From assembly GCA_035627955.1 (NCBI GenBank), contig DASPKU010000004.1, positions 1 through 64,000 of the forward strand: a stretch of 64,000 bases of DNA, in the 5' to 3' direction. The notes below the pieces were generated by a model. That model was given only the letters and a program-made list of their open reading frames with translations. It was not told where the DNA came from and did not search any database. The stretch is from Phycisphaerales bacterium. GTDB lineage: Bacteria; Planctomycetota; Phycisphaerae; Phycisphaerales; UBA1924. Every line of letters begins with the position of its first letter. Position 1 is the first letter of the stretch. Shown in pieces: positions 51,133-64,000 of this stretch. Position numbers and translations under genes: made by a program.

Positions 51133-51978
51133 ATGGCAACGCCCGCCGTCCCCAAGTCCTACACCACCCCCGACGCCTCCGACGGCAAGCCCGACCAGCC
51201 GCTGAAGGAGAAGCCCGTCGCCATGAACACCGGCCCCGGCCGCCCCGTCACCTTCAAGGTCTGGCGCGGCGACTCCACCAACGCCGGCTTCCAGGACTAC
51301 ACCACCACCATCACCGTCGGCATGGTCGTCCTCGACGCCATCCACCAGATCCAGGCCGAGTCGGCCCCCGACCTCGCCTGCCGCTGGAACTGCAAGGCCG
51401 GCAAGTGCGGCTCCTGCTCGGCCGAGATCAACGGCAAGCCCCGCCTGATGTGCATGACCCGGATGGACGAGCTGCCGGAAGGCCCCGTCACCGTCGAACC
51501 GATGAAGGCCTTCCCCCTCATCAAGGACCTCGTCACCGACGTCTCCTGGAACTACGAGGTCAAGAAGCGCCTCAAGCCGTTCAAGCCCCGCAAGCCCGAC
51601 GCCCCCGACGGCACCTGGCGCATGCAGCAGCAGGACGTCGACCGCGTGCAGGAGTTCAGGAAGTGCATCGAGTGCTTCCTCTGCCAGGACGTCTGCCACG
51701 TCCTCCGCGACCACCACAAGCACGACGAGTTCATCGGCCCCCGCTTCTTCGTCTACTCCGCCGCCCTCGAGATGCACCCCCTCGACACCGAGGACCGCGT
51801 CGCCGACCTCAAGGAACGCAACGGCATCGGCTACTGCAACATCACCAAGTGCTGCACCAAGGTCTGCCCCGAGCACATCACCATCACCGACAACGCCATC
51901 ATCCCCCTGAAAGAACGCGTGGTGGACGAGTTCTACGACCCGCTGACGAGGCTGTTCCGGGTGTTCAAGGGGAAGTGA
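51133..51978 (+). CDS. sdhB: Succinate dehydrogenase iron-sulfur subunit
   Basis: The 281-residue product has the 2Fe-2S ligands Cys83/87/92/95 and 107 ('CRWNCKAGKCGSC'), then 'CIECFLCQDVC' (178-188) and 'CNITKCCTKVC' for the 4Fe-4S and 3Fe-4S clusters. It carries electrons from SdhA to the membrane anchor. ATG 51133 is the first start after the inverted repeat. The 3' end overlaps by 14 nt the 3' end of the converging STAND gene. Confidence 0.94.
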   Translation: MATPAVPKSYTTPDASDGKPDQPLKEKPVAMNTGPGRPVTFKVWRGDSTNAGFQDYTTTITVGMVVLDAIHQIQAESAPDLACRWNCKAGKCGSCSAEINGKPRLMCMTRMDELPEGPVTVEPMKAFPLIKDLVTDVSWNYEVKKRLKPFKPRKPDAPDGTWRMQQQDVDRVQEFRKCIECFLCQDVCHVLRDHHKHDEFIGPRFFVYSAALEMHPLDTEDRVADLKERNGIGYCNITKCCTKVCPEHITITDNAIIPLKERVVDEFYDPLTRLFRVFKGK

Positions 51979-54900
51979 GACTGTCGCCGGCTTCGGGCCC
52001 GGGCAGAACTCTTACACGAAGTCGATGCCAGAAGTACCGCAGTTCGATGATCCATCCAGCGGCGGCGGCGTTCGCCTCGGCTACCTGCTGAGCCCGTAAC
52101 TTGCTCAGGTACTCCGCCTCTTTCGCGTCCTCACCTCGGATGCGCCAAAGAAATGATGAGTGGCGGAACAATCGCATGAGCGAACCGGTGTCACCATCCG
52201 CTTCGAAGACGGACCAGAGCGCATCATGGCACCGATCGAACAGACTCGAAAACCGCTGCGAGTACAAGTATGAGTAGGCGGTGGTCAAGATTTGGACCTC
52301 GCCCGGCCTCACCGACTTGCCTGGGTTTTCTAGGATCGCACCTGCCTTCAGGATGATTGCTCTTGTCCTGTTGTACCCTGGGGTTCTCGAGTCTATCACC
52401 CGGTCCGCCAGCTTTGTTTTCTCCCGGTCGGACCCACTCAAATCTGCGAGTTGAAGCGCGAGAATATTCGCCAGCTTGGTCTTTCCTGAGGCACGCGCCG
52501 AGTCCTCCAGCTCTGCGAGTCGTTTCCGCGCATCTGCAACGGACAGCGTTGCCACAGCGATGATGGCTTGGGCATGGACGTACTTTGCATCCTTCTTCGA
52601 TGTTAGCTCCACAACCTTGTTGGCGGCGTCGACAGCAGCTTCAGCGTCTCCCTGGAAATCATGCACCAGCGCGATGCCGAGCCAAATGGATGCCTGTTCG
52701 TCCTTGGAAAGGAAGGTGCTCCCGGCCTCCAGTGCCTCGTTTAGATAAGTAAGGGCCTCGTCCTTTCGGCCGTCGAGCATGCGGACTGCGCGGCCATGTA
52801 TTGCCACTAGCCTGGCCCATAACGCTGCGTGCTCCCGCTTAGGGACCATGTCAAGGAGGGGTTCGGTGACCAGACTGGCGTCACGGTACCTGTCGAGGTC
52901 ATACAAATGGTGGGCGAAAGTCAAACTCATCGCCGCCGCCTGCCCCACTCCTCTCTGATCACCCTTGTTCCTGCACTGCAGCAGGTACTGGTGGACCAGT
53001 GCCGCCTCGTTGCCGGCCCCGCCACCGATGAAGTCGCGATAGGCGAGGTCCTGCGCACGAACCTTCGCTCTGCCCTCCCGCCAGCCGCGCCCGAAGTACC
53101 GCTCGAGTCCATATCCGACGATCTGCTCCCGCTCCGCTTCATTCAACAGTGTCTGAACGTAGTCGCGGACTTGCCTTGGCACCCGTAGCACCTTCGCGAG
53201 GTCCCTTTCACTTTTCTTGCCCGTGACACCCGGCTGAAGTGGAACCACATCTAACAATGAGAGCTCGTTCAATTCAACCGCATTCTCAAGGAAGAAGGGC
53301 TCTGCCGGCAGAAAGTGCCGAAGGACCTCAAGGGTCTCTCCATAGGGCAACATCGACAGTACCTTTAGGAGCTTCAAGCTCCGCTTGCTCTTAGTAGTCT
53401 CCGAGCTTGCCAACCGGTTTACCGCGCTCATCAGCGCAGCTGCATCCGAACCGTCTAGGGACTCGGCTGGCAGAGAGCCCTCCAACTCAGCCTCGATCAC
53501 TGTGCTCAAGGAAGCTACTTTCATCGCCTTGAGCAGACGATCGATATGCATCGGTAGCCCGTCGGAGTGCCGGTGGATCGCTTCGATCGTCTCCGCATCG
53601 ACTCCCGAGACTGGGGCGTCCCGATGCGCAGTGATGTAGGTACGCGTGTCAGGCAACTCCAGTGGTTGCAGCGCGACAGAGTCGTATTCGCTGATCCCTG
53701 GTCGCTGCCGGGTTGTGATCACAATCTTGAGCGCGGGGCAATAGTCCAGTATTGCGCCGATCAACCGCTCGAACCTAGGCCGCTCTTCATTCTGTAACAA
53801 CTCGGGGTGTAGGTCATCCAGCAATAGGAATGCATTCGGTAGCTGAGCGATGATGTTGCAGAACTTCTGAATCGGATGCCCGAACTGTTGGGGGAATAAC
53901 GATTCGAATGCTGTGACCCTCGACGCCTCGTCACACCTGAGGTGGAATGCCTCAAGAGCAACGGTGGCTTTCCTAAACCGCTCAAGCGCGGTCGCTATGA
54001 ATTCATTGCGCCCCGTTCCCCAGTCTGCTACAAGCCAAACGCATCGATCGGAGCGGAGCGCGTGTTCGAAAGCGCTGAGTTCGTCCAAGCGTACGCCGCG
54101 GTGCTGGGGTCCTGGCTGTTCAATGAAACGGGGGCAGGACACTACCATACGTAGCGCATCAGCTTCCCCCGGCGGCGCGGTGAGGAGCTGGAACTCCTCC
54201 CCTACTGGCTCTGGAGTCGGTTCCGGCTTCCCAGTTGGATCCTCCGCGGTGCCCGGCGACTCGAAGACTCGGCTCAAGGAGCCGTCCTCCTCTGGTCTAA
54301 GTGAGGCATCTGCGGTGAGGTGGTAGCCACCACCCCTTACTCGCACCGCGATGCGAGGCCAAAGCTTCTCTGTCAGTGCTGTGCCGTCGAAGCTGTACTG
54401 TCCCGCGGTGTAGCCGTGAGTACGTTTCTGCACCTGCGCATCGCCCCAGCCTTCAAGCCCAAACAACGAGCTGGCCTGTCTTAGCCGCCGTGCACCCGTG
54501 CCCCCCTCGAATGCGTCGATGACATTGGCCTCGTGCAAGTGCCCGCAAAAGTGCCCTACGAAGCGGCCCGGCGGGTAGATTTCGTCCTGAAACCGTCGAA
54601 GCCCTCTGGGGTCGAACCAATCGGGCGCATGGTGAGTCAGAAGCACAGCCGCCGTTCTAGCACGGACCCATCCCTCCGCATCGCCATCACAGACTCGGGC
54701 AATTTGCGACATGTGTACGTCGAGTTTCCCTAGAAAGTTCCCCGCCGCGACCTGCAGGAAAGTCGTGTTCAATCCAACGATTCCGAGCGATACCGAGCCC
54801 TTGTTGAATGTCGCACTGAAATCCCCAGGGATGCAGCCTTCCGTATCCCTCAGCAACGGAACGGGGACGGAGTCGAGCCACCGCATGTAGTTCTCAAGCG

Positions 54901-55309
54901 CGGTGGCAACCAACGCGCGAGTGTCAGCGTTCGGATCACGCCAGAAGTGATCGCGAACTGATTGATCCTCCCACCAGAGCGACGTCATGGCCTTCAGGAC
55001 GGACGAGCCTGGATCGGGACGCACAATGTCGTGGTTTCCAGGCACGGCGCAAAGAAAAGGGGTTGACCCGCCTTTGCCCAACACATCCCATAGTTCCTGT
55101 AGCAGGTGGTTCAACTGTGCGTACTCGGCCTCATTCCCTCGCTGCACGAAGTCGCCGGTGAAAAATACGAGATCGATGGCGCCATTCCTGGCGAGCATCC
55201 TCTCTAGGTCGACGAAAAGGTCGTGTTTCACTTTGGGCCACAGCCACGCGTCACCGTCCAGCCCGAGATGGAGGTCCGACAAGTGAAGCCAGTTGATCAC
55301 ATCAGGCAT
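51965..55309 (-). CDS. Metallophosphoesterase-STAND ATPase-TPR fusion protein
   Basis: This 1114-residue protein has three parts. Residues 5-265 form a calcineurin-like phosphoesterase with every metal motif: D12/H14 (SDLH), GD 52-53, GNHD 91-94, HH 226-227 and GHLH 256-259. Residues about 400-700 form a STAND-like P-loop ATPase. Its nucleotide loop 'ADWGTGRNEF' (428-437) has Arg for the usual Lys, its Walker B is LLLDD (495-499), and 'ITTRQRPG' (531-538) resembles the STAND TTRxR motif. Residues about 760-1080 are helical, TPR-like repeats. The layout effector-STAND-repeats is that of bacterial NLR-like (Avs-type) antiphage proteins. Codon use is less GC-rich than in neighbouring genes, suggesting transfer. 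Confidence 0.85.
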   Translation of the reverse strand: MPDVINWLHLSDLHLGLDGDAWLWPKVKHDLFVDLERMLARNGAIDLVFFTGDFVQRGNEAEYAQLNHLLQELWDVLGKGGSTPFLCAVPGNHDIVRPDPGSSVLKAMTSLWWEDQSVRDHFWRDPNADTRALVATALENYMRWLDSVPVPLLRDTEGCIPGDFSATFNKGSVSLGIVGLNTTFLQVAAGNFLGKLDVHMSQIARVCDGDAEGWVRARTAAVLLTHHAPDWFDPRGLRRFQDEIYPPGRFVGHFCGHLHEANVIDAFEGGTGARRLRQASSLFGLEGWGDAQVQKRTHGYTAGQYSFDGTALTEKLWPRIAVRVRGGGYHLTADASLRPEEDGSLSRVFESPGTAEDPTGKPEPTPEPVGEEFQLLTAPPGEADALRMVVSCPRFIEQPGPQHRGVRLDELSAFEHALRSDRCVWLVADWGTGRNEFIATALERFRKATVALEAFHLRCDEASRVTAFESLFPQQFGHPIQKFCNIIAQLPNAFLLLDDLHPELLQNEERPRFERLIGAILDYCPALKIVITTRQRPGISEYDSVALQPLELPDTRTYITAHRDAPVSGVDAETIEAIHRHSDGLPMHIDRLLKAMKVASLSTVIEAELEGSLPAESLDGSDAAALMSAVNRLASSETTKSKRSLKLLKVLSMLPYGETLEVLRHFLPAEPFFLENAVELNELSLLDVVPLQPGVTGKKSERDLAKVLRVPRQVRDYVQTLLNEAEREQIVGYGLERYFGRGWREGRAKVRAQDLAYRDFIGGGAGNEAALVHQYLLQCRNKGDQRGVGQAAAMSLTFAHHLYDLDRYRDASLVTEPLLDMVPKREHAALWARLVAIHGRAVRMLDGRKDEALTYLNEALEAGSTFLSKDEQASIWLGIALVHDFQGDAEAAVDAANKVVELTSKKDAKYVHAQAIIAVATLSVADARKRLAELEDSARASGKTKLANILALQLADLSGSDREKTKLADRVIDSRTPGYNRTRAIILKAGAILENPGKSVRPGEVQILTTAYSYLYSQRFSSLFDRCHDALWSVFEADGDTGSLMRLFRHSSFLWRIRGEDAKEAEYLSKLRAQQVAEANAAAAGWIIELRYFWHRLRVRVLPGPEAGDSLTSP

Positions 55310-56977: not shown

Positions 56978-57043
56978 CACGTCCGGAGGTTGATCGCACG
57001 CGGCGGACCGTTCGTCGCCAACCCTCTACCTTCCGTCCCAAAA

Positions 57044-57211
57044 GGTCTACAGACCGCCCCGGAAGGTCTTCAGTTTGCCCCGGCGGGTCTTCAGTCTGGT
57101 CCGGAAGGTCTACAGACCGCTCCGGAAGGCCGCCAGTCTGCCCCAAAGGGTCTACAGACCGGGGCGGAAGGTCTGCTGTTTGGCCCGGATAGTCTGCTGT
57201 TTGCTCCAAAC
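57044..57211. repeat. 21-bp minisatellite, eight units
   Basis: Eight consecutive 21-nt units vary around GGTCTACAGACCGCCCCGGAA. Units 1, 4 and 6 contain the small inverted repeat GGTCT-AC-AGACC. It is not a CRISPR because units abut without spacers. Confidence 0.9.
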
Positions 57212-57563: not shown

Positions 57564-59354
57564 CTAAAGCGGCTTCTTCACCCAATCGAACTTCTTGTTC
57601 GCGTCGGCCATGCACTTGGTGAAGACCTCTTTCGTGCGGAGGAACTCGTACTTCTCATCCGCGAGTTTGGGCGCGTACATCTTGTCGTCGAGAATCGTCT
57701 TCAGGAGCGGTAGCACCTCTCGCCGGGCGAGAACCACCAATAGCTCCTTGAACGCGACCTCCTTGGTCATCCTGGTGCCGAAGAGGTCGAGGTATTCCAG
57801 CAGCTTGTTGCTGTTGTAGATCGCTTGGACCAGCAGGGACCACACCAGGTTGCGCGCCTTTGCGATAGCAGGCCGGTGCTTGCCCGCAGCGCGTTCATCG
57901 AGCTCATCCATCGCGGCCCGCAGCATCAGCCCGGTCTTGTAGGCGATGACGATGCGGCGCGGGTCCGAGTCAACGTAGCTCTCGCGGAATGTCTCCGTGT
58001 ACCACTTCTGGTTTTCGAAGACCTCCGGCAGCTGCGACATCTTGGGGATTTCGCCCTGGATAGCAAGCAGCGTCTGTGCCATCGGGCGGATGCGAAGGTC
58101 GCGCGTCGTATCGTACCCGGCCTTTTCGAGCTCCTCGTCGGAGTACCCGGCGAAAGAATTTTCCTGGCGCGAGTAGAAGAGTTCCAGCTTCTCTTTGAAC
58201 AGATCGTGGAGGTCGGACTGCACCCGGTCATTGGCGCGGAGGTTCCAGGAGTTGACCGGGTTCTGCCGGTTGTTGCTGATGGTGACGGTGGTCACGAAGT
58301 CGCTCGCCGGATCGGCCACGACGACTTTCGCCAGCACTTTGACCCGTGACAGCGGCGAGTCGGGGCCTGACATCGAGGGGTGCTTCTCATGCTCCTTCAT
58401 GAACCGTGCGACGCTGGTAATAGTCTGCGCCCCGTTGAGCAGCCGCGGTACCTTGACCTCGCAGACACCCTCCTTTTGCACGAACTGCTCCACCGCAAGG
58501 GTGACTCCGTTGTGGTTGAACGCGAATACTTCCGGCTCAACTTTCCGTTCCAGCACGATCTCGGAAAGCGCCTGGCGGATCTTCTTGTTGGGCGGATTGT
58601 CCTCCGAAAGGCCCGATCGGATGTTCCGGTCCAGGAAGCGCTGGTTCAACGCCAGGTAGATCGCGTGCAGGTCCATGAGGGGCACGAACCCAACATGCAT
58701 CGTGTGCTCCCCGTCGGGAGTCGTGATGCTTGCGGCTTCCGACAACCTGATCCGGAAGGATTGGGGCGGCGGCGGTAGCGGCGGGCGGCGAGTGTCGGCG
58801 ATGAACTCCACCCGGAACTCGATGTCTCGCTTGACCCCGTCGTCCCCCTTGAAGAAGTCTTCGACGATGTAGTGCTTGTTCTCGACGTCCTCGCGTCTCG
58901 CCTGCAACCCCTGGCTGTTCTCGGCAGCGTCCAGATCGCCCTTGAACACCATGTGAACCAGTACACGCTTGATCAGGTCGCGTGAGTCGGCCAGCTCGGC
59001 CCGCAGACCGGCCAGCAGCTCGTTCTTGTGCGGGTCCGCCTTCGCGTTCCCGAAGATTCGCTCGATGCCGTCCTTGGCAAGCCGCTCGAGAGACTCACGG
59101 AAGAGGGCATGGTTCTCTGACCACTTGAACTGGAACAGGTACAGGTTCTTGGAGGCCCGCTCGATGAAGTAGGCGTCAATCCCGTAGTCGTTGTTACCGA
59201 ATGCGACGAAGGGACGGATGTCCTCGATTGGACGCTCGAACTTCCGCGAGAGGTAGAGGCACGCGAAGTAATCCTCTTTACAGCCCCCCCACTTCGACTT
59301 GAAGTCGCTATAGAGCTGTTCGATTTCCTGCTTGTCCTTCGATGTGATTGGCAT
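57564..59354 (-). CDS. AIPR-family abortive infection protein
   Basis: The 596-residue product matches the AIPR (abortive infection phage resistance) family: 'FAFNHNGVTLAVEQF', 'LLNGAQTITSV' and 'TISNNRQNPVNSWNLRANDR' are its conserved blocks. The N-terminus carries 'NNDYGIDAYFI' and 'LYLFQFKW' (D60 and Q75-x-K77), which fits a PD-(D/E)XK-type nuclease core. It is expected to block phage by nuclease attack. ATG 59354 is preferred to an upstream start because AGGAGA lies 10 nt before it and homologous sequence starts there. A TATACT box lies about 30 nt upstream. Confidence 0.88.
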   Translation of the reverse strand: MPITSKDKQEIEQLYSDFKSKWGGCKEDYFACLYLSRKFERPIEDIRPFVAFGNNDYGIDAYFIERASKNLYLFQFKWSENHALFRESLERLAKDGIERIFGNAKADPHKNELLAGLRAELADSRDLIKRVLVHMVFKGDLDAAENSQGLQARREDVENKHYIVEDFFKGDDGVKRDIEFRVEFIADTRRPPLPPPPQSFRIRLSEAASITTPDGEHTMHVGFVPLMDLHAIYLALNQRFLDRNIRSGLSEDNPPNKKIRQALSEIVLERKVEPEVFAFNHNGVTLAVEQFVQKEGVCEVKVPRLLNGAQTITSVARFMKEHEKHPSMSGPDSPLSRVKVLAKVVVADPASDFVTTVTISNNRQNPVNSWNLRANDRVQSDLHDLFKEKLELFYSRQENSFAGYSDEELEKAGYDTTRDLRIRPMAQTLLAIQGEIPKMSQLPEVFENQKWYTETFRESYVDSDPRRIVIAYKTGLMLRAAMDELDERAAGKHRPAIAKARNLVWSLLVQAIYNSNKLLEYLDLFGTRMTKEVAFKELLVVLARREVLPLLKTILDDKMYAPKLADEKYEFLRTKEVFTKCMADANKKFDWVKKPL

Positions 59355-59383
59355 TTGCTGCGATTCTCCTGCTCGAACCCGCG

Positions 59384-59389
59384 AGTATA
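59384..59389 (-). promoter_or_regulatory. Candidate -10 box of AIPR gene
   Basis: On the minus strand TATACT lies about 30 nt before ATG 59354 and upstream of its Shine-Dalgarno site. No -35 consensus was seen. Confidence 0.5.
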
Positions 59390-59613
59390 CCGCCAGGCGG
59401 AGGTCCCCCTGCGTATGCGCAACTCCTTGCCCACACGCGATCTCCGAAAAATCCGTCACATTCGATAAACCCGCGCCCTCGCCTTCCCGATCCCTTTTTC
59501 AGCACACGCGGCAACCACGTAGGCCCGCGAGTGTGGTCAGAGAGGTTTGGATAGGCCAGGCGGGCTGCCACACCTGAACCAGCCCATGCGGCCGCACTCG
59601 CGGAGTCAGTCAC

Positions 59614-60300
59614 ATGTCGAACATCCCTGAGACGTAGTCCGAGTTCATCGCGTGGGCGAAGGTGCGCCAGGCCCAGTGGATTTTGAACCAGGCGCAAATC
59701 GGATTGTCGGGGCCCCAGACCGTCGCATTCAAGACGCTGGTCGAGGCCCTGGAGGCGGCCGAGGACGACGCGCAGGTGAAGCGCGAAGCGAGCAAGGACG
59801 CCACCCGGACGCTCAACAACTCCGAGTCGGCGGCCCGCATCGTGGCCGGGGCCTACGTCAACCTCATCAAGGCCTTCGCCGAGACCACCGGCAACCCGAG
59901 CGTGTACTCCCTCAGCGGCGTCAACGCCGACTCGCCCCCGGGCACCCTTCCCGCGCCCGTGCCGCCCTCCAAGTTCTTCGCGACGCTCAACGCCGACGGC
60001 TCGCTGACCCTTCGCTTCCGCGCCAGCCAGCCCAAGGGCGTGACCGGCGTGGTCTACCAGATCTTCCGCCGCTTCAGCAGCGATGCCCCCTTCACGCAGG
60101 TGGGCAGCACCGGCGCCACAAAGCGCTGGGTCGACCAGACCATCCCCTTCGGCACCGACCGCGTGGAGTACATGGTGACCCCGGTCCGCGGCGAGGTGGT
60201 GGGCGAGTCCAGCGACGCCTTCCCCGTGCAGTTCGGCAGCGTGGGCGGCGGCAACTTCAGCATCAGCTCCGGGAGCGGCGAGAACAAGCTGGCGGCGTGA
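59614..60300 (+). pseudogene. Fibronectin III-like protein gene with TAG at codon 8
   Basis: ATG 59614 has GCGGAG at the right distance and encodes MSNIPET, then TAG (59635-59637). The same frame continues without a break as 'SEFIAWAKVRQAQWILNQA' to 60300. The N-terminal segment resembles other Phycisphaerae proteins I have seen starting MxNIPxTxxEL, so the TAG interrupts a real gene. A GTG at 59662 could restart a 212-residue product but lacks a ribosome-binding site. The C-terminal half (about 110-200) is fibronectin III-like ('GSLTLRFRASQPKG', 'VVYQIFRRFSSDAPFTQVG'). A perfect terminator follows. Confidence 0.6.
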
Positions 60301-60361
60301 GACGTCTGAAGTCCGGGTCCTGATCCTGGGTCCTGGGTCCTGAATGTGTGCCTCCTTTCCG

Positions 60362-60400
60362 GCGTGGGCCCTGTGAGATGACAGGGCCCACGCTGTTTTT
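60362..60400 (+). terminator. Rho-independent terminator
   Basis: GCGTGGGCCCTGT pairs perfectly with ACAGGGCCCACGC over a 6-nt loop, followed by TGTTTTT. Confidence 0.92.
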
Positions 60401-60486
60401 GCGCTCGGCGCTGGGGACGGTAACGCGGAGGGGCGGTTGGGGGGGCCGGAATAAACCCACCCGCCGGGCACGCCGATAACCGGGGT

Positions 60487-62427
60487 ATGGACCAGACCCC
60501 AGCCGCGAGCTCAGCCCCCGCCGCCCCCACCACCCACACCACCCCCACCACCCCCACCACCCCCGCCACGCCCAGTTCAAACCTCGTCGCGCCCGTGGGG
60601 AAGAAGCGGGCCTACCGCGCCCCCGGCGTGCTCCCCCCGCCCCCGGCGGGCCAGGAGTTCTGGACCAAAGAGCAGTGCGCGGGTTACTTCAACGTGGGCA
60701 AGGGCAAGTGGTCGGCGTGGGAGCGCGTGGGGAGGGTCACGATCCCGCGGTACCGGCTTGCCCAGCGGGCGGGCTCGCCGATCGTGTACCTGCGGCGGGA
60801 CGTGGAGACGCTGGGGTTTGCGCGCGCGGTGCCCTTTGCGCCCGAGGGCGCGGCCGTCATGACACGGATCGAGTGCGCCGAGCACTTCGGGGTGACGGAG
60901 GACACCTTCTGCGGCTGGGAGAACTCGGGAAAGGTGCCCATCCCGCGGTACAAGGTGAAGGGCCCGCACCGGCCGCTGGTGGTGTACCTCACGAGCGACG
61001 TGGCCACGCTGCCTTTCGCCGCGCCGCTGCCGCTGCCGCCGGCGGGTGCGGCGGTGATGACGCGGGACGAGTGCGCCGCGCACTTCGGGGTGACGGAGAA
61101 CACGTTCATGCACTGGGAGACGGGCGGCCTCGTGCCCATCGCCCGCTACCGCTACACGGGGCCGCGGGCCAAGGTGTGCTACCTGCGGGCGGATGTCGAG
61201 GCCCTCCGGCTGGAGACGCCCCCGCCGCTGGCCCCGGCGGGGTTGGAGGTGATGACCCGCGAGCAGTGCGCTGAACACTGGGGCCTGTGCATCGAGGCCT
61301 GGGGCGACCGGGAGCGGCAGGGCCTGGTGAACATCCCCCGCTACAGCATGATCGAGAACCGCACGCGCAAGCACTGCTACGCCGCGGCGGAGGTGCGTGC
61401 ACTGCCCTTCGCCGCGCCGCTGCCGCTGCCGCCGGCGGGGGTGGAGGTGTGGACGCGGGACGAGTGCGCGGAGCACTTTGGGATCACCGAGGACGCGTGG
61501 GAGGAGCGCGAGAAGAAGGGCGAGGTGCCGTTGCAGCGGTACCGCTGGACCGGGGCTTCGCAGCACAAGTGCTGCTACATCGCCGCGGAGGTGGCGAAGC
61601 TGGACGGGCGGGTGCTGCCGCCGCCGCCGCCCGAAGGGCTGGCGGTGATGGACCGCGGCGAATGCGCGGCGTTCTTCGGGATCGCTCCGGACACCTGGGG
61701 CAGCTGGGAGCAGCAGGGCAGAGTGACGATCCCGCGCTACCGGCGGGCGATGCCCGACGGTAAGCGGCGCATGTGCTATGCAGTCGAGGACGCGACGCGG
61801 CTGCGTGAGCAGATCCGGACCGAGTACGCTCCGTTCCCTGATCCGGAGCGGCCGGGCTGCTACCGGGTCCCGATCTACACCCACAGCGGCAAGCGGTTCG
61901 CCGTCATTGATGCCGCGGACCTTCCCAAGGTGGATGGCAGGAGCTGGAACGTGTCGCAGCGCACCGACGAGGACGCCCCGCGCGGGGACGTGGTGCTGGC
62001 GACCGAGCCGCACATCCCGCTCAAGCGGATCATCTCGGGCGAGGAGCACTCCGGGCCGGAGGTACGCATCACGTTCGCCAATGGTGATTACCTCGACCAC
62101 CGGCGCGAGAACCTGGTCGTGCGCAGCTACGCCGAGCAGTCGTACAACATGCGCAAGCCCCGCACAAGGCACGGACGGCCGTGCACGTCCAGGTTCAAAG
62201 GTGTGTCCTGGTCCGAGCACACAGGGAAGTGGACGGCCCACATCGGCAAGGATGGCAAGTCGTACTACCTCGGCCTCTTCTATGAGGAGGAGGACGCCGC
62301 CCGCGCCTACGACGAGGCGGCGCGGCGGATGTTCGGCGAGCACGCCCGGCTCAACTTCCCGGATGAGGGGGCGCTGCTGATGCACCGCGAACTGCGCGGG
62401 GGAGAGGGCGGTCGGCGGGCGGCATGA
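60487..62427 (+). CDS. Six tandem HTH-like repeats fused to degenerate HNH and AP2 DNA-binding domain
   Basis: The 646-residue product has a Thr/Pro/Ala leader (1-45). Six repeats of 65-66 residues follow (about 50-440), anchored on Cys at 64, 130, 196, 261, 327 and 393, with the pattern 'ECAEHFGVTEDTF..WE..G.VPIPRY' that resembles an excisionase/MerR-type winged HTH. Residues 455-550 resemble an HNH homing endonuclease: 'IPLKRIISG', then 'ANGDYLDHRRENLVV'. The first catalytic His of the HNH is missing. Residues 567-625 form an AP2/ERF domain ('SRFKGVSWSEHTGKWTAHIG', 'EEDAARAYDEAARRMFGE'). It is probably a DNA-binding protein derived from a homing endonuclease. Confidence 0.85.
   Translation: MDQTPAASSAPAAPTTHTTPTTPTTPATPSSNLVAPVGKKRAYRAPGVLPPPPAGQEFWTKEQCAGYFNVGKGKWSAWERVGRVTIPRYRLAQRAGSPIVYLRRDVETLGFARAVPFAPEGAAVMTRIECAEHFGVTEDTFCGWENSGKVPIPRYKVKGPHRPLVVYLTSDVATLPFAAPLPLPPAGAAVMTRDECAAHFGVTENTFMHWETGGLVPIARYRYTGPRAKVCYLRADVEALRLETPPPLAPAGLEVMTREQCAEHWGLCIEAWGDRERQGLVNIPRYSMIENRTRKHCYAAAEVRALPFAAPLPLPPAGVEVWTRDECAEHFGITEDAWEEREKKGEVPLQRYRWTGASQHKCCYIAAEVAKLDGRVLPPPPPEGLAVMDRGECAAFFGIAPDTWGSWEQQGRVTIPRYRRAMPDGKRRMCYAVEDATRLREQIRTEYAPFPDPERPGCYRVPIYTHSGKRFAVIDAADLPKVDGRSWNVSQRTDEDAPRGDVVLATEPHIPLKRIISGEEHSGPEVRITFANGDYLDHRRENLVVRSYAEQSYNMRKPRTRHGRPCTSRFKGVSWSEHTGKWTAHIGKDGKSYYLGLFYEEEDAARAYDEAARRMFGEHARLNFPDEGALLMHRELRGGEGGRRAA
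60634..61806 (+). repeat. Six tandem coding repeats of about 198 nt
   Basis: The unit encodes one HTH-like module plus a proline-rich linker (LPFAAPLPLPPAG-type). Units are similar at nucleotide level, especially the linkers, which suggests expansion by unequal exchange. Confidence 0.85.
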
Positions 62428-62549
62428 GCGAGGCGGGGGCGCGACGGCACGCGAGCATCGCACCCCGCCGGTGGTCCGCAATCTGCTTGCATGCCTCCCC
62501 CGCTGTGGTAGTCTCGTTCCCCAGAGACCCGAGAGGGGGGATACCACGC

Positions 62550-63635
62550 ATGCCTGTCCGTACCGCCGTTGTGACCGCGGTGTCCGCCGCGCTGGGTATC
62601 GCTGTCGCCCCCGCGCAGGCGCAGTGGAACGTCACCGCCCTGACGCCGCCCGATGCCAGCACCAACGCCTTTGCCAACGGCACCGCCGGGGGCGTGCAGG
62701 TGGGGAACTACGGCAACAACCCGGCGCTGTGGACGGGGACGCAGGCCTCGCACGTCAACATGCTCCCCGCCGGGGCGCACTCGGGGCAGCTGCTCAGGAC
62801 CGACGGCGGGCAGCACGTGGGGCTGGTGCGCTGGTCGGGGTTCTCTGACCGCCAGGCCACGCTGTGGGGCGGGACCGCCGCGTCCGCCACCAGCCTGCAC
62901 CCCGCGGGCGCGTTCCTCTCCACCGCCCACGGCATCGGCGGAGGCCAGCAGGTGGGCGAAGCCACGTTCACCAGCGACCAGAACCTCACCCGCGCGGGAC
63001 TCTGGAGCGGCACCGCGGGCTCGTGGGTCAGCCTGCACCCCTCGGGCGTGAACACCTCTACCGCACGCGGCACCGACGGCACGCAGCAGGTTGGGCAGGT
63101 CAATATCGGCGGCCAGGGCAACCGCGCCGCCTTCTGGAGCGGCACGGCCGCCAGCTTCGTCAATCTCCACCCCACCGGCTACCAGATCTCGATCGCGGTC
63201 GCGGTGCACAACGGCCAGCAGGTCGGGCTGGTGCAGGGCACCCCCGGAAACCATGCGGCCCTGTGGAGCGGCTCCGCGGCGTCGTTCCTCAGCCTCACGC
63301 CCGCCGGCGCCTTCGGCTCCAGCGCCCGGGGCGTGTTCAACGGCGTGCAGGTCGGCACCGCGAGCTTCCCCGATGCCCAGCGGGCGGGCCTCTGGCGCGG
63401 CACCGCCGCGAGCTGGGAAGACCTGCACCAGTACCTGCCCGCGGGGTATAGCAGCTCCGCCGCGAACAGCATCTGGTCCGACGGCACGACGACCTACATC
63501 GCCGGCAGCGCCTTCAACCCCGCCACCGCCCGCAACGAGGCGATGCTGTGGACGTACACCGTTCCCGCGGCGCCCACGACCGGCGTGCTGGGCCTCGCGG
63601 GGCTGCTGGCGGCGGGGCGGCGGCGGACGCGGTAA
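62550..63635 (+). CDS. Secreted HAF-type repeat protein with PEP-CTERM-like tail
   Basis: The 361-residue product has a signal peptide (ending APAQAQ) and about seven repeats of the type 'AxLWSGTAASxxxLHPxG' followed by 'GGQQVGxAxF'. These propeller-like blades are of the HAF/autotransporter-extracellular kind. The C-terminus 'TTGVLGLAGLLAAGRRRTR' is a hydrophobic helix with a basic end, like PEP-CTERM-type sorting signals but without a clear PEP motif. ATG 62550 is preferred because the signal peptide starts there. Confidence 0.82.
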   Translation: MPVRTAVVTAVSAALGIAVAPAQAQWNVTALTPPDASTNAFANGTAGGVQVGNYGNNPALWTGTQASHVNMLPAGAHSGQLLRTDGGQHVGLVRWSGFSDRQATLWGGTAASATSLHPAGAFLSTAHGIGGGQQVGEATFTSDQNLTRAGLWSGTAGSWVSLHPSGVNTSTARGTDGTQQVGQVNIGGQGNRAAFWSGTAASFVNLHPTGYQISIAVAVHNGQQVGLVQGTPGNHAALWSGSAASFLSLTPAGAFGSSARGVFNGVQVGTASFPDAQRAGLWRGTAASWEDLHQYLPAGYSSSAANSIWSDGTTTYIAGSAFNPATARNEAMLWTYTVPAAPTTGVLGLAGLLAAGRRRTR

Positions 63636-63683: not shown

Positions 63684-64000
63684 TCAGCACGCCCCCCCGC
63701 CCAGCACCCTGAAGAAGCTCTCGATGTCCTGGTCGGTGCCCACGTCGCCGTCCTGGTTGAAGTCGGCGGTGGGCGGGCAGGTCTGGCAGCAGTTCCCGCC
63801 CAGGCAGGCGAAGAAGGACTCGATGTCCTGGTCGGTGCCGGTGTCGCCGTCGCCGTTGAAGTCGGCGGTGCAGCCGGTCGCGCCCGCGGGGATGAGCAGC
63901 ACGGCCCCGGCGCCGGAGGTGATGCCCACGATGTGGCCGTGGTCGTTGATGTCGAGCACGCTGTGCAGCGTCTCGCCCCCCGCCGGGCCCTCGACGTGCT
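63684..64000 (-). CDS. Secreted HAF-repeat protein, C-terminal part with dockerin-like pair (5' end outside window)
   Basis: The frame is open to the window edge on the minus strand, so only the C-terminus is seen. It shows 'LDINDHGHIVGIT', a HAF repeat, then two calcium-loop modules ('NGDGDTGTDQDIESFF' and 'NQDGDVGTDQDIESFF') around a CC/C cluster, and ends with Cys. It is the third protein in the window with this terminal module. Confidence 0.85.
   Translation of the reverse strand, partial: HVEGPAGGETLHSVLDINDHGHIVGITSGAGAVLLIPAGATGCTADFNGDGDTGTDQDIESFFACLGGNCCQTCPPTADFNQDGDVGTDQDIESFFRVLGGGAC

Follow-up and report, generated by a model that had tools for sequence, protein, structure and literature searches.

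The window analysed here, a stretch of 64,000 nucleotides from a Phycisphaerales bacterium, carries near its end a gene for a 646-aa protein (Table 1). The gene is a single ORF running from an ATG to a stop codon, and its third-position GC is of the coding type. The protein begins with a Thr/Pro/Ala-rich segment (residues 1-45), which is followed by six repeats (~48-447) and an HNH-AP2 tail (~449-630). Comparison of residues 1-430 with themselves gave peaks at shifts of 197, 66, 263, and 131 (mean BLOSUM62 scores of 1.35, 1.23, 1.04, and 0.51, respectively); the best of 200 shuffled controls scored -0.57. Using a profile built from the repeats, we detected six modules of ~66 aa each, which are 33-58% identical in pairs and joined by linkers of ~9-11 residues. 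The original prediction, made by a model from the sequence, had described six such repeats ahead of a C-terminal HNH-AP2 part, and this layout was recovered by self-comparison, the profile, and Pfam. It had also placed Cys residues at 64, 130, 196, 261, 327, and 393, and these positions are exact. The repeat Cys is present in six of the 60 modules of the family, all six in the window protein, which points to recent common descent of these repeats and not to a functional role; a metal-binding or structural role for the regularly spaced Cys was thereby ruled out. A pseudogene or an assembly artefact was also ruled out, given 14 related open-frame proteins from 13 genomes (two of them, in G387 and G390, truncated at contig ends) and dN/dS values of at most 0.46, obtained from genus g23 alone.

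Table 1. Features of the array gene and its upstream region in the window
Feature	Position	Strand	Basis or remark
Helical + Fn3-like gene	59662..60297	+	Fn3 label by eye; Fn3-like half fused to C-terminus of five relatives
Intrinsic terminator between Fn3-like and HTH-array genes	60360..60395	+	-35.3 kcal/mol, z -5.9
CCGATA-N8-ATG start context	60473..60489	+	common to seven family genes
Gene for 646-aa tandem winged-HTH / degenerate HNH-AP2 protein	60487..62427	+	ORF, self-comparison, third-position GC 0.92
Thr/Pro/Ala-rich low-complexity N-terminus	60487..60621	+	translation, TRF; 9-bp DNA repeat at 60515-60574
Winged-HTH module 1	60649..60819	+	profile match
Winged-HTH module 2	60847..61017	+	profile match, structure model (one model with module 3)
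Winged-HTH module 3	61045..61209	+	profile match, structure model, MerR_1 best stretch
Winged-HTH module 4	61240..61410	+	profile match
Winged-HTH module 5	61438..61602	+	profile match
Winged-HTH module 6	61636..61809	+	profile match, structure model (one model with tail)
HNH-AP2 homing-endonuclease-derived tail	61831..62379	+	tail alignment, catalytic columns, tail tree
Degenerate HNH motif (canonical D-H -> T-F, LDN -> LDH)	62062..62142	+	Pfam HNH_3 stretch, alignment columns
AP2 domain	62188..62337	+	Pfam AP2; plant AP2/ERF structures as near folds

Each repeat is a winged helix-turn-helix (HTH) of the MerR/BldC/excisionase type; the original prediction had supposed a MerR/excisionase winged helix. 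In the window protein, Pfam MerR_1 passed its cut-off (26.3 bits, cut-off 21.6), and HTH_17 was absent from the Pfam matches listed. In L066, a relative with nine modules, HTH_17 (85.7 bits, cut-off 27), MerR_1 (65.5 bits, cut-off 21.6), and the NCBIfam excisionase model TIGR01764 (30.0 bits, cut-off 28.8) all passed. Module 3 of the window protein also matched the NCBIfam BldC model, but at 27.8 bits (E 1.6e-6) it stayed short of the cut-off of 77. Structure models of modules 2-3 and of module 6 with the tail had mean pLDDT values of 91 and 87, respectively, and each modelled module ran in the order strand, helix, turn, recognition helix, two-strand wing, and helix, the winged HTH expected from the prediction and not some other, non-DNA-binding fold. 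The nearest folds were a MerR-type protein (5d90, Z 7.4), BldC (6ama, Z 7.0), and RdfS (8dgl, Z 6.8), with RacA also among them, and BldC superposed on the module at ~2.1 A with 28% identity over 54 columns. With Z values of 6-7 and Foldseek E values above 0.001, these fold matches were modest, yet they agreed with the sequence profiles. The models left the placement of the modules relative to each other unfixed (pTM 0.58 and 0.64; two-module model 0.58). In both the sequence and the models, the C-terminal dimerisation coiled coil and the effector domain of MerR regulators are missing, and the modules are followed by the HNH-AP2 tail.

In the tail, Pfam AP2 covered residues 568-617 with 35.8 bits (cut-off 33.3). 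HNH_3 reached 12.7 bits in the window protein, against a cut-off of 24.8, which it passed in relatives L068 and L070 (44.0 and 35.3 bits). Both Pfam and the model place HNH and AP2, in that order, in one polypeptide. The best three structure matches of the AP2 domain had Z values of 9.3-10.8 over 60-66 residues, with plant TEM1 (Z 10.8, 39% identity) and ERF1 (Z 9.3, 45% identity) among the near folds. The tail could be aligned, up to full length, to HNH-AP2 homing endonucleases of phages and bacteria, with 26-51% identity in the best segments. Descent of the C-terminus from such an enzyme, another part of the original prediction, was thus borne out by Pfam, alignment, model, and folds.

The prediction had further noted that the first HNH His was lost. 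It is Phe in the window protein, and further catalytic positions are gone as well. We compared the family with canonical tails (71 genomic and 91 viral, 162 in all), which came from the best 80 loci of the genome and viral searches each and were picked out by patterns derived from the alignment of the family tails themselves; they do not form a random sample. The HNH Asp was kept in one of 20 family tails, compared with 71/71 genomic and 88/91 viral tails, and the His after it in 14/20, compared with 71/71 and 89/91. The Asn of LDN was kept in 0/20 (63/71 and 83/91 in the canonical tails), the His of MHR in 1/20 (63/71 and 71/91), and the last Asn in 2/20 (59/71 and 72/91). The roles of these positions, including that of the Asp as a metal ligand, are assumed from I-HmuI-type enzymes. 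For the columns and the tail tree, 202 matched rows were reduced to 182 distinct ones, and 35 family rows to 20, owing to duplicate contigs. The 20 family tails formed one clade among the 182 (support 0.88), and G70, N84, D89, R91, N94, and L95 were invariant in all 20. Loss of the catalytic positions together with these invariant residues suggests that the fold was kept while catalysis has most probably gone, a loss that extends beyond the window protein to the whole monophyletic family. Fourteen of the 20 tails keep the HNH His, and on sequence grounds some residual or altered nuclease activity is possible.

Genome searches gave matches in 6/61 relatives, 16/400 genomes of the order, 8/392 of the phylum, and 11/163 of the family-level group. 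Three genomes (G023, G252, and G260) had a weak tail match and no module, which reduced the 16 to 13. The module-bearing family thus consists of 14 proteins in 13 genomes, all of one order, Phycisphaerales. Module number varies widely, an outcome on which the original prediction had depended: nine in the four g23 species, six in the window protein, three in a second copy in the same genome (G000:C9:8111-9463), two in G390, whose gene runs off a contig end, and one in G057. Six relatives have the unit of one HTH plus HNH-AP2 twice, and five of these end in an Fn3-like domain. Beside the three-module paralogue lies an AP2 tail remnant with an internal stop (L027, G000:C9, 7448-7621, - strand), a decayed extra copy.

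A scan of genome contigs with the whole protein gave no match; the tail alignment did give matches. With the module profile (E 1e-4), modules were found in nine of 79 genomic tail loci, all nine being family loci (L066-L074), and in none of the best 80 viral tail loci. All 24 module-bearing ORFs in the tail loci searched were family copies. Among 50,697 phage records, the tail matched 86, each at <60% identity, and tblastn of the array matched nothing; a phage origin of the array was rejected on this result within the phage records searched, the viral contig collection having been covered with the tail only.

In a tree of the 60 modules, the six of the window protein grouped together (0.89), and so did the 36 of g23 (0.92), with one G057 module inside the g23 clade. 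The six- and nine-module arrays therefore expanded independently. Within g23, each of the nine positions formed a clean four-species clade (support 0.68-1.0), and this one-to-one orthology indicates that the array kept its nine modules throughout the divergence of the four species from their common ancestor. Orthologous g23 modules are 56-91% identical, and modules inside the G022 protein 13-44%. Among the four species, the array had dN/dS values of 0.31-0.46, the tail 0.16-0.40, and mutL 0.11-0.18. Selection in g23 is purifying, and weaker than on this core gene.

The original prediction had also proposed comparing the repeats for variation confined to the recognition helix. Set against other polar columns, such a contrast was seen in g23 and is absent in the window protein taken alone. 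Between modules of one g23 protein, variation at polar columns of the recognition helix was 0.87, compared with 0.75 at other polar columns (P 0.014); between orthologues, it was 0.26 compared with 0.33 (P for lower 0.15). At polar recognition-helix columns, the between-module value exceeded the between-orthologue value by 0.61, and at other polar columns by 0.41 (P 0.0008, for a measure combined after the fact). In the window protein, the corresponding values between modules were 0.77 and 0.72 (P 0.35). When seven recognition-helix columns of our own choice were set against all others, a lax control, P was 0.0008 in the window protein, 0.0022 among g23 modules, and 0.21 among orthologues. The respective values were 0.064, 0.060, and 0.60 for the whole recognition helix and 0.20, 0.085, and 0.013 for the wing columns. 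The wing columns diverged faster between g23 orthologues than the rest (0.33 vs 0.21, P 0.013), which fits poorly with a fully fixed contact surface. Taken together, the g23 comparisons provide moderate evidence that each g23 module keeps its own specificity. The part of the original prediction that sees a modular, sequence-specific DNA binder thereby gains indirect support.

The start context CCGATA-N8-ATG is common to the genes of the window, its paralogue, G022, G105, G243, G061, and G276. The whole genome contains 16 instances of it (none of the reversed control pattern), and in 17 loci totalling 286 kb its seven matches are the seven family starts. The CCGATA box may perhaps be the -10 element of a leaderless transcript. 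A sigma-70 scan found no promoter-like site. When the sequences preceding the g23 genes of the four species were aligned, one short conserved block appeared ~70-90 bp before the start. As candidates for a nearby operator, we considered a 7-bp repeat found by TRF at 60311-60342 and the 9-bp repeat in the coding start; neither could be tied to the protein.

The product of the helical + Fn3-like gene upstream matched no family in Pfam or NCBIfam. The gene has 25 matches in the 4.26-Mb genome and lies within 1.5 kb of both array genes there. In G029, G241, and G071, the array-family gene is closely preceded by the end of another gene that looks similarly built on inspection, and a remnant was seen in G078. 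In the window, a common operon of the Fn3-like and array genes is unlikely because the strong terminator separates them.

In three g23 genomes, the gene is found on the 3' side of mutL (G061, G022, and, with three genes between, G105); in G243, the copy and mutL are on different contigs. At the mutL 3' site of G062 (L245, 6299-11259), we observed genes for a HATPase protein and a DNA methyltransferase, which look like a restriction system, together with a helical-Fn3-like gene. This site, which holds the nine-module gene in the sister species, is a probable insertion hotspot. The stretches of G063 and G094 that were examined contained neither module nor tail.

Outside g23, defence-type genes lay beside or near six of ten loci, a count that is not blind because the first ten neighbours had been selected for scanning by their defence-like look. 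The genes were AIPR/AbiU in the window, on the far side of the Fn3-like gene; Cas9 and OLD in G078; a methyltransferase and NB-ARC-TPR in G241; an OLD-like ATPase in G071; a PDC-S06 ATPase in G387; and HerA, two genes away, in G057. The scanned neighbours of the window gene's own paralogue, G029, G276, and G390 included no defence-type gene; the paralogue adjoins a WapI-like immunity protein, and the G390 gene a serine recombinase. As a control, PADLOC (1e-6) matched one of ten window genes, via a desaturase model, and one of eight g23 neighbours, a TatD-like protein via the QatD model, with no clear defence gene among the latter. By eye, no recombinase was seen beside family genes other than that of G390; three loci end at contig ends, and the scan took in some of the neighbours across the loci.

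Several further features were noted in these regions. In the window, the AIPR/AbiU-like protein (57564-59459, - strand) and a calcineurin-like phosphoesterase with TPR repeats (51965-55309, - strand; PADLOC PDC-S60, E 7.5e-14) probably belong to a defence stretch. TRF found a 21-bp / 63-bp tandem repeat at 57042-57174, whose unit contains the short inverted repeat GGTCT..AGACC. On the other side of the array gene, 62424-63635 (+) and 63684-63998 (-) had no or weak Pfam matches; by eye, we take the former, which adjoins the array gene, to be a secreted-type repeat protein and the latter another, ending in a dockerin-like D-F-N-G-D-G repeat. The Cas9 of G078 (1351 aa; L033, G078:C4, 2855-6907, - strand) lies directly downstream of the family gene, with a cas2-like gene, identified by eye, nearby.

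We propose that the protein is probably a non-cleaving DNA-binding regulator, derived from a domesticated phage-type HNH-AP2 homing endonuclease, with a head-to-tail array and a dead tail as an anchor. The tandem winged helices would lie head-to-tail along neighbouring turns of the DNA, each with its recognition helix in a major groove, and the tail would hold one end as a DNA-binding, possibly partner-binding, anchor. The array would then be the covalently linked counterpart of a BldC or RdfS filament and would read a fixed, extended site, which for six modules may measure ~55-65 bp if each module spans the 9-10 bp of a BldC protomer. It would most likely regulate accessory loci, as a repressor or by shaping DNA architecture; among these loci would be the variable regions where the genes reside, many of them rich in defence genes. 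Computation shows the folds of module and tail, the descent of the tail, the lost catalytic residues, the varying module number, the separate growth of the arrays, purifying selection in g23, and the patchy distribution; DNA binding itself, the register, the site length, and the regulatory role are what we infer here, and the head-to-tail binding of BldC and RdfS, together with the precedents of WhiA and AP2/ERF, favours this reading.

A sequence-independent coat, in which the array bends, compacts, or silences DNA as a filament in the manner of RdfS and lambda Xis and carries no modular code, seems unlikely to us. It does agree with the near folds, which include excisionases and BldC; as the account in PMC11963761 describes partly indirect readout for such proteins, the array could be architectural and not sequence-specific. 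The proline-rich linkers of the window protein, the unequal wing lengths among g23 modules, and the lack of special variability in the window recognition helices point in the same direction. Such a coat would not, however, call for g23 recognition helices that are module-specific and preserved between species, and the one-to-one orthology with a constant nine modules suggests a fixed register.

Still more doubtful is a homing-type element that remains mobile, recognising a long target and inserting itself through a residual or recruited nuclease, with the array as an enlarged recognition part. The patchy distribution in the family-level group, the location in variable regions, the other cassette (ATPase + methyltransferase) at the G062 mutL site, and the serine recombinase adjoining the G390 gene are consistent with mobility, but the catalytic Asp is lost in 19 of 20 tails and the Asn in all 20, no common insertion site was seen by eye among the loci outside g23, and the g23 gene stays 3' of mutL in three of four genomes with its modules in one-to-one correspondence. 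We regard as equally improbable an anti-phage component, whose array would recognise invading DNA or control a linked defence system. The six defence-associated loci speak for it, set beside the single matches in each PADLOC control. Yet the neighbouring systems are all different and their orientations vary, which fits shared residence in variable islands; the count behind the association was drawn partly from pre-picked neighbours; the g23 genes show no clear defence neighbour; and there is no conserved operon.

A broader idea can be put forward tentatively. Phycisphaerales may have evolved, at least twice and on the same domesticated tail, a covalent chain of non-identical readers, each with its own recognition helix and with the length of the chain set by module number, following a logic like that of zinc-finger and TALE arrays and built from bacterial HTH domains. 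Should each module read its own stretch of DNA, the family would offer a natural winged-HTH array for learning reading rules, and the series of 1, 2, 3, 6, and 9 modules makes the idea of modular reading directly testable.

Among known systems, BldC shares the fold and size of the module, with ~28% identity at ~2 A. As described in PMC5859096, BldC binds 9-bp direct repeats head-to-tail, with the recognition helix in the major groove and the wing in the minor groove. It is a single free domain that forms non-covalent oligomers and has no dimerisation helix, whereas the array modules are covalently joined, non-identical, and end in HNH-AP2. The account in PMC11963761 reports that RdfS forms superhelical head-to-tail filaments and that indirect readout contributes to DNA binding by both BldC and RdfS. 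RdfS and Xis share the fold, and the HTH_17 and excisionase models match relative L066; they are single-domain recombination directionality factors that serve an integrase, whereas no conserved integrase was seen with the array family.

The canonical HNH-AP2 homing endonucleases, which the tail resembles over up to its full length, keep D-H and N, and no HTH module occurs in their loci among the best loci searched. NUMODs are modular DNA-binding units on active HNH or GIY-YIG nucleases. They are likewise add-on DNA-binding modules; by description, they are set apart as other domains on active nucleases. In the open-access PMC literature searched, we found no description of the present architecture, an array of up to nine distinct covalent winged-HTH modules on a dead HNH-AP2.

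Plant AP2/ERF factors, which are eukaryotic, have the AP2 fold in common with the tail (39-45% identity over 60-66 residues), and we know of none with an HNH or an HTH array. Their origin from HNH-AP2 endonucleases has been proposed (Magnani 2004, cited in PMC5318435). The combination of a domesticated homing endonuclease with an HTH is already known from WhiA. As PMC3781837 presents it, WhiA (DUF199) is a transcription regulator found in essentially all Gram-positives, in which a degenerate homing endonuclease that has lost its metal and catalytic residues is fused to a DNA-binding HTH. WhiA thus resembles the array family in joining a degenerate homing-endonuclease domain to an HTH; it has a LAGLIDADG scaffold and one HTH, whereas the array family has HNH-AP2 and an HTH array and is patchy in one planctomycete order. 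No LAGLIDADG family was among the Pfam matches of the window protein and its relatives. Transcription factors of both bacteria (WhiA) and plants (AP2/ERF) are believed to have arisen from homing endonucleases, and the present family would add a bacterial case in which HNH and AP2 are still attached, catalytically broken, and extended by arrays whose expansion to six and to nine modules took place independently.
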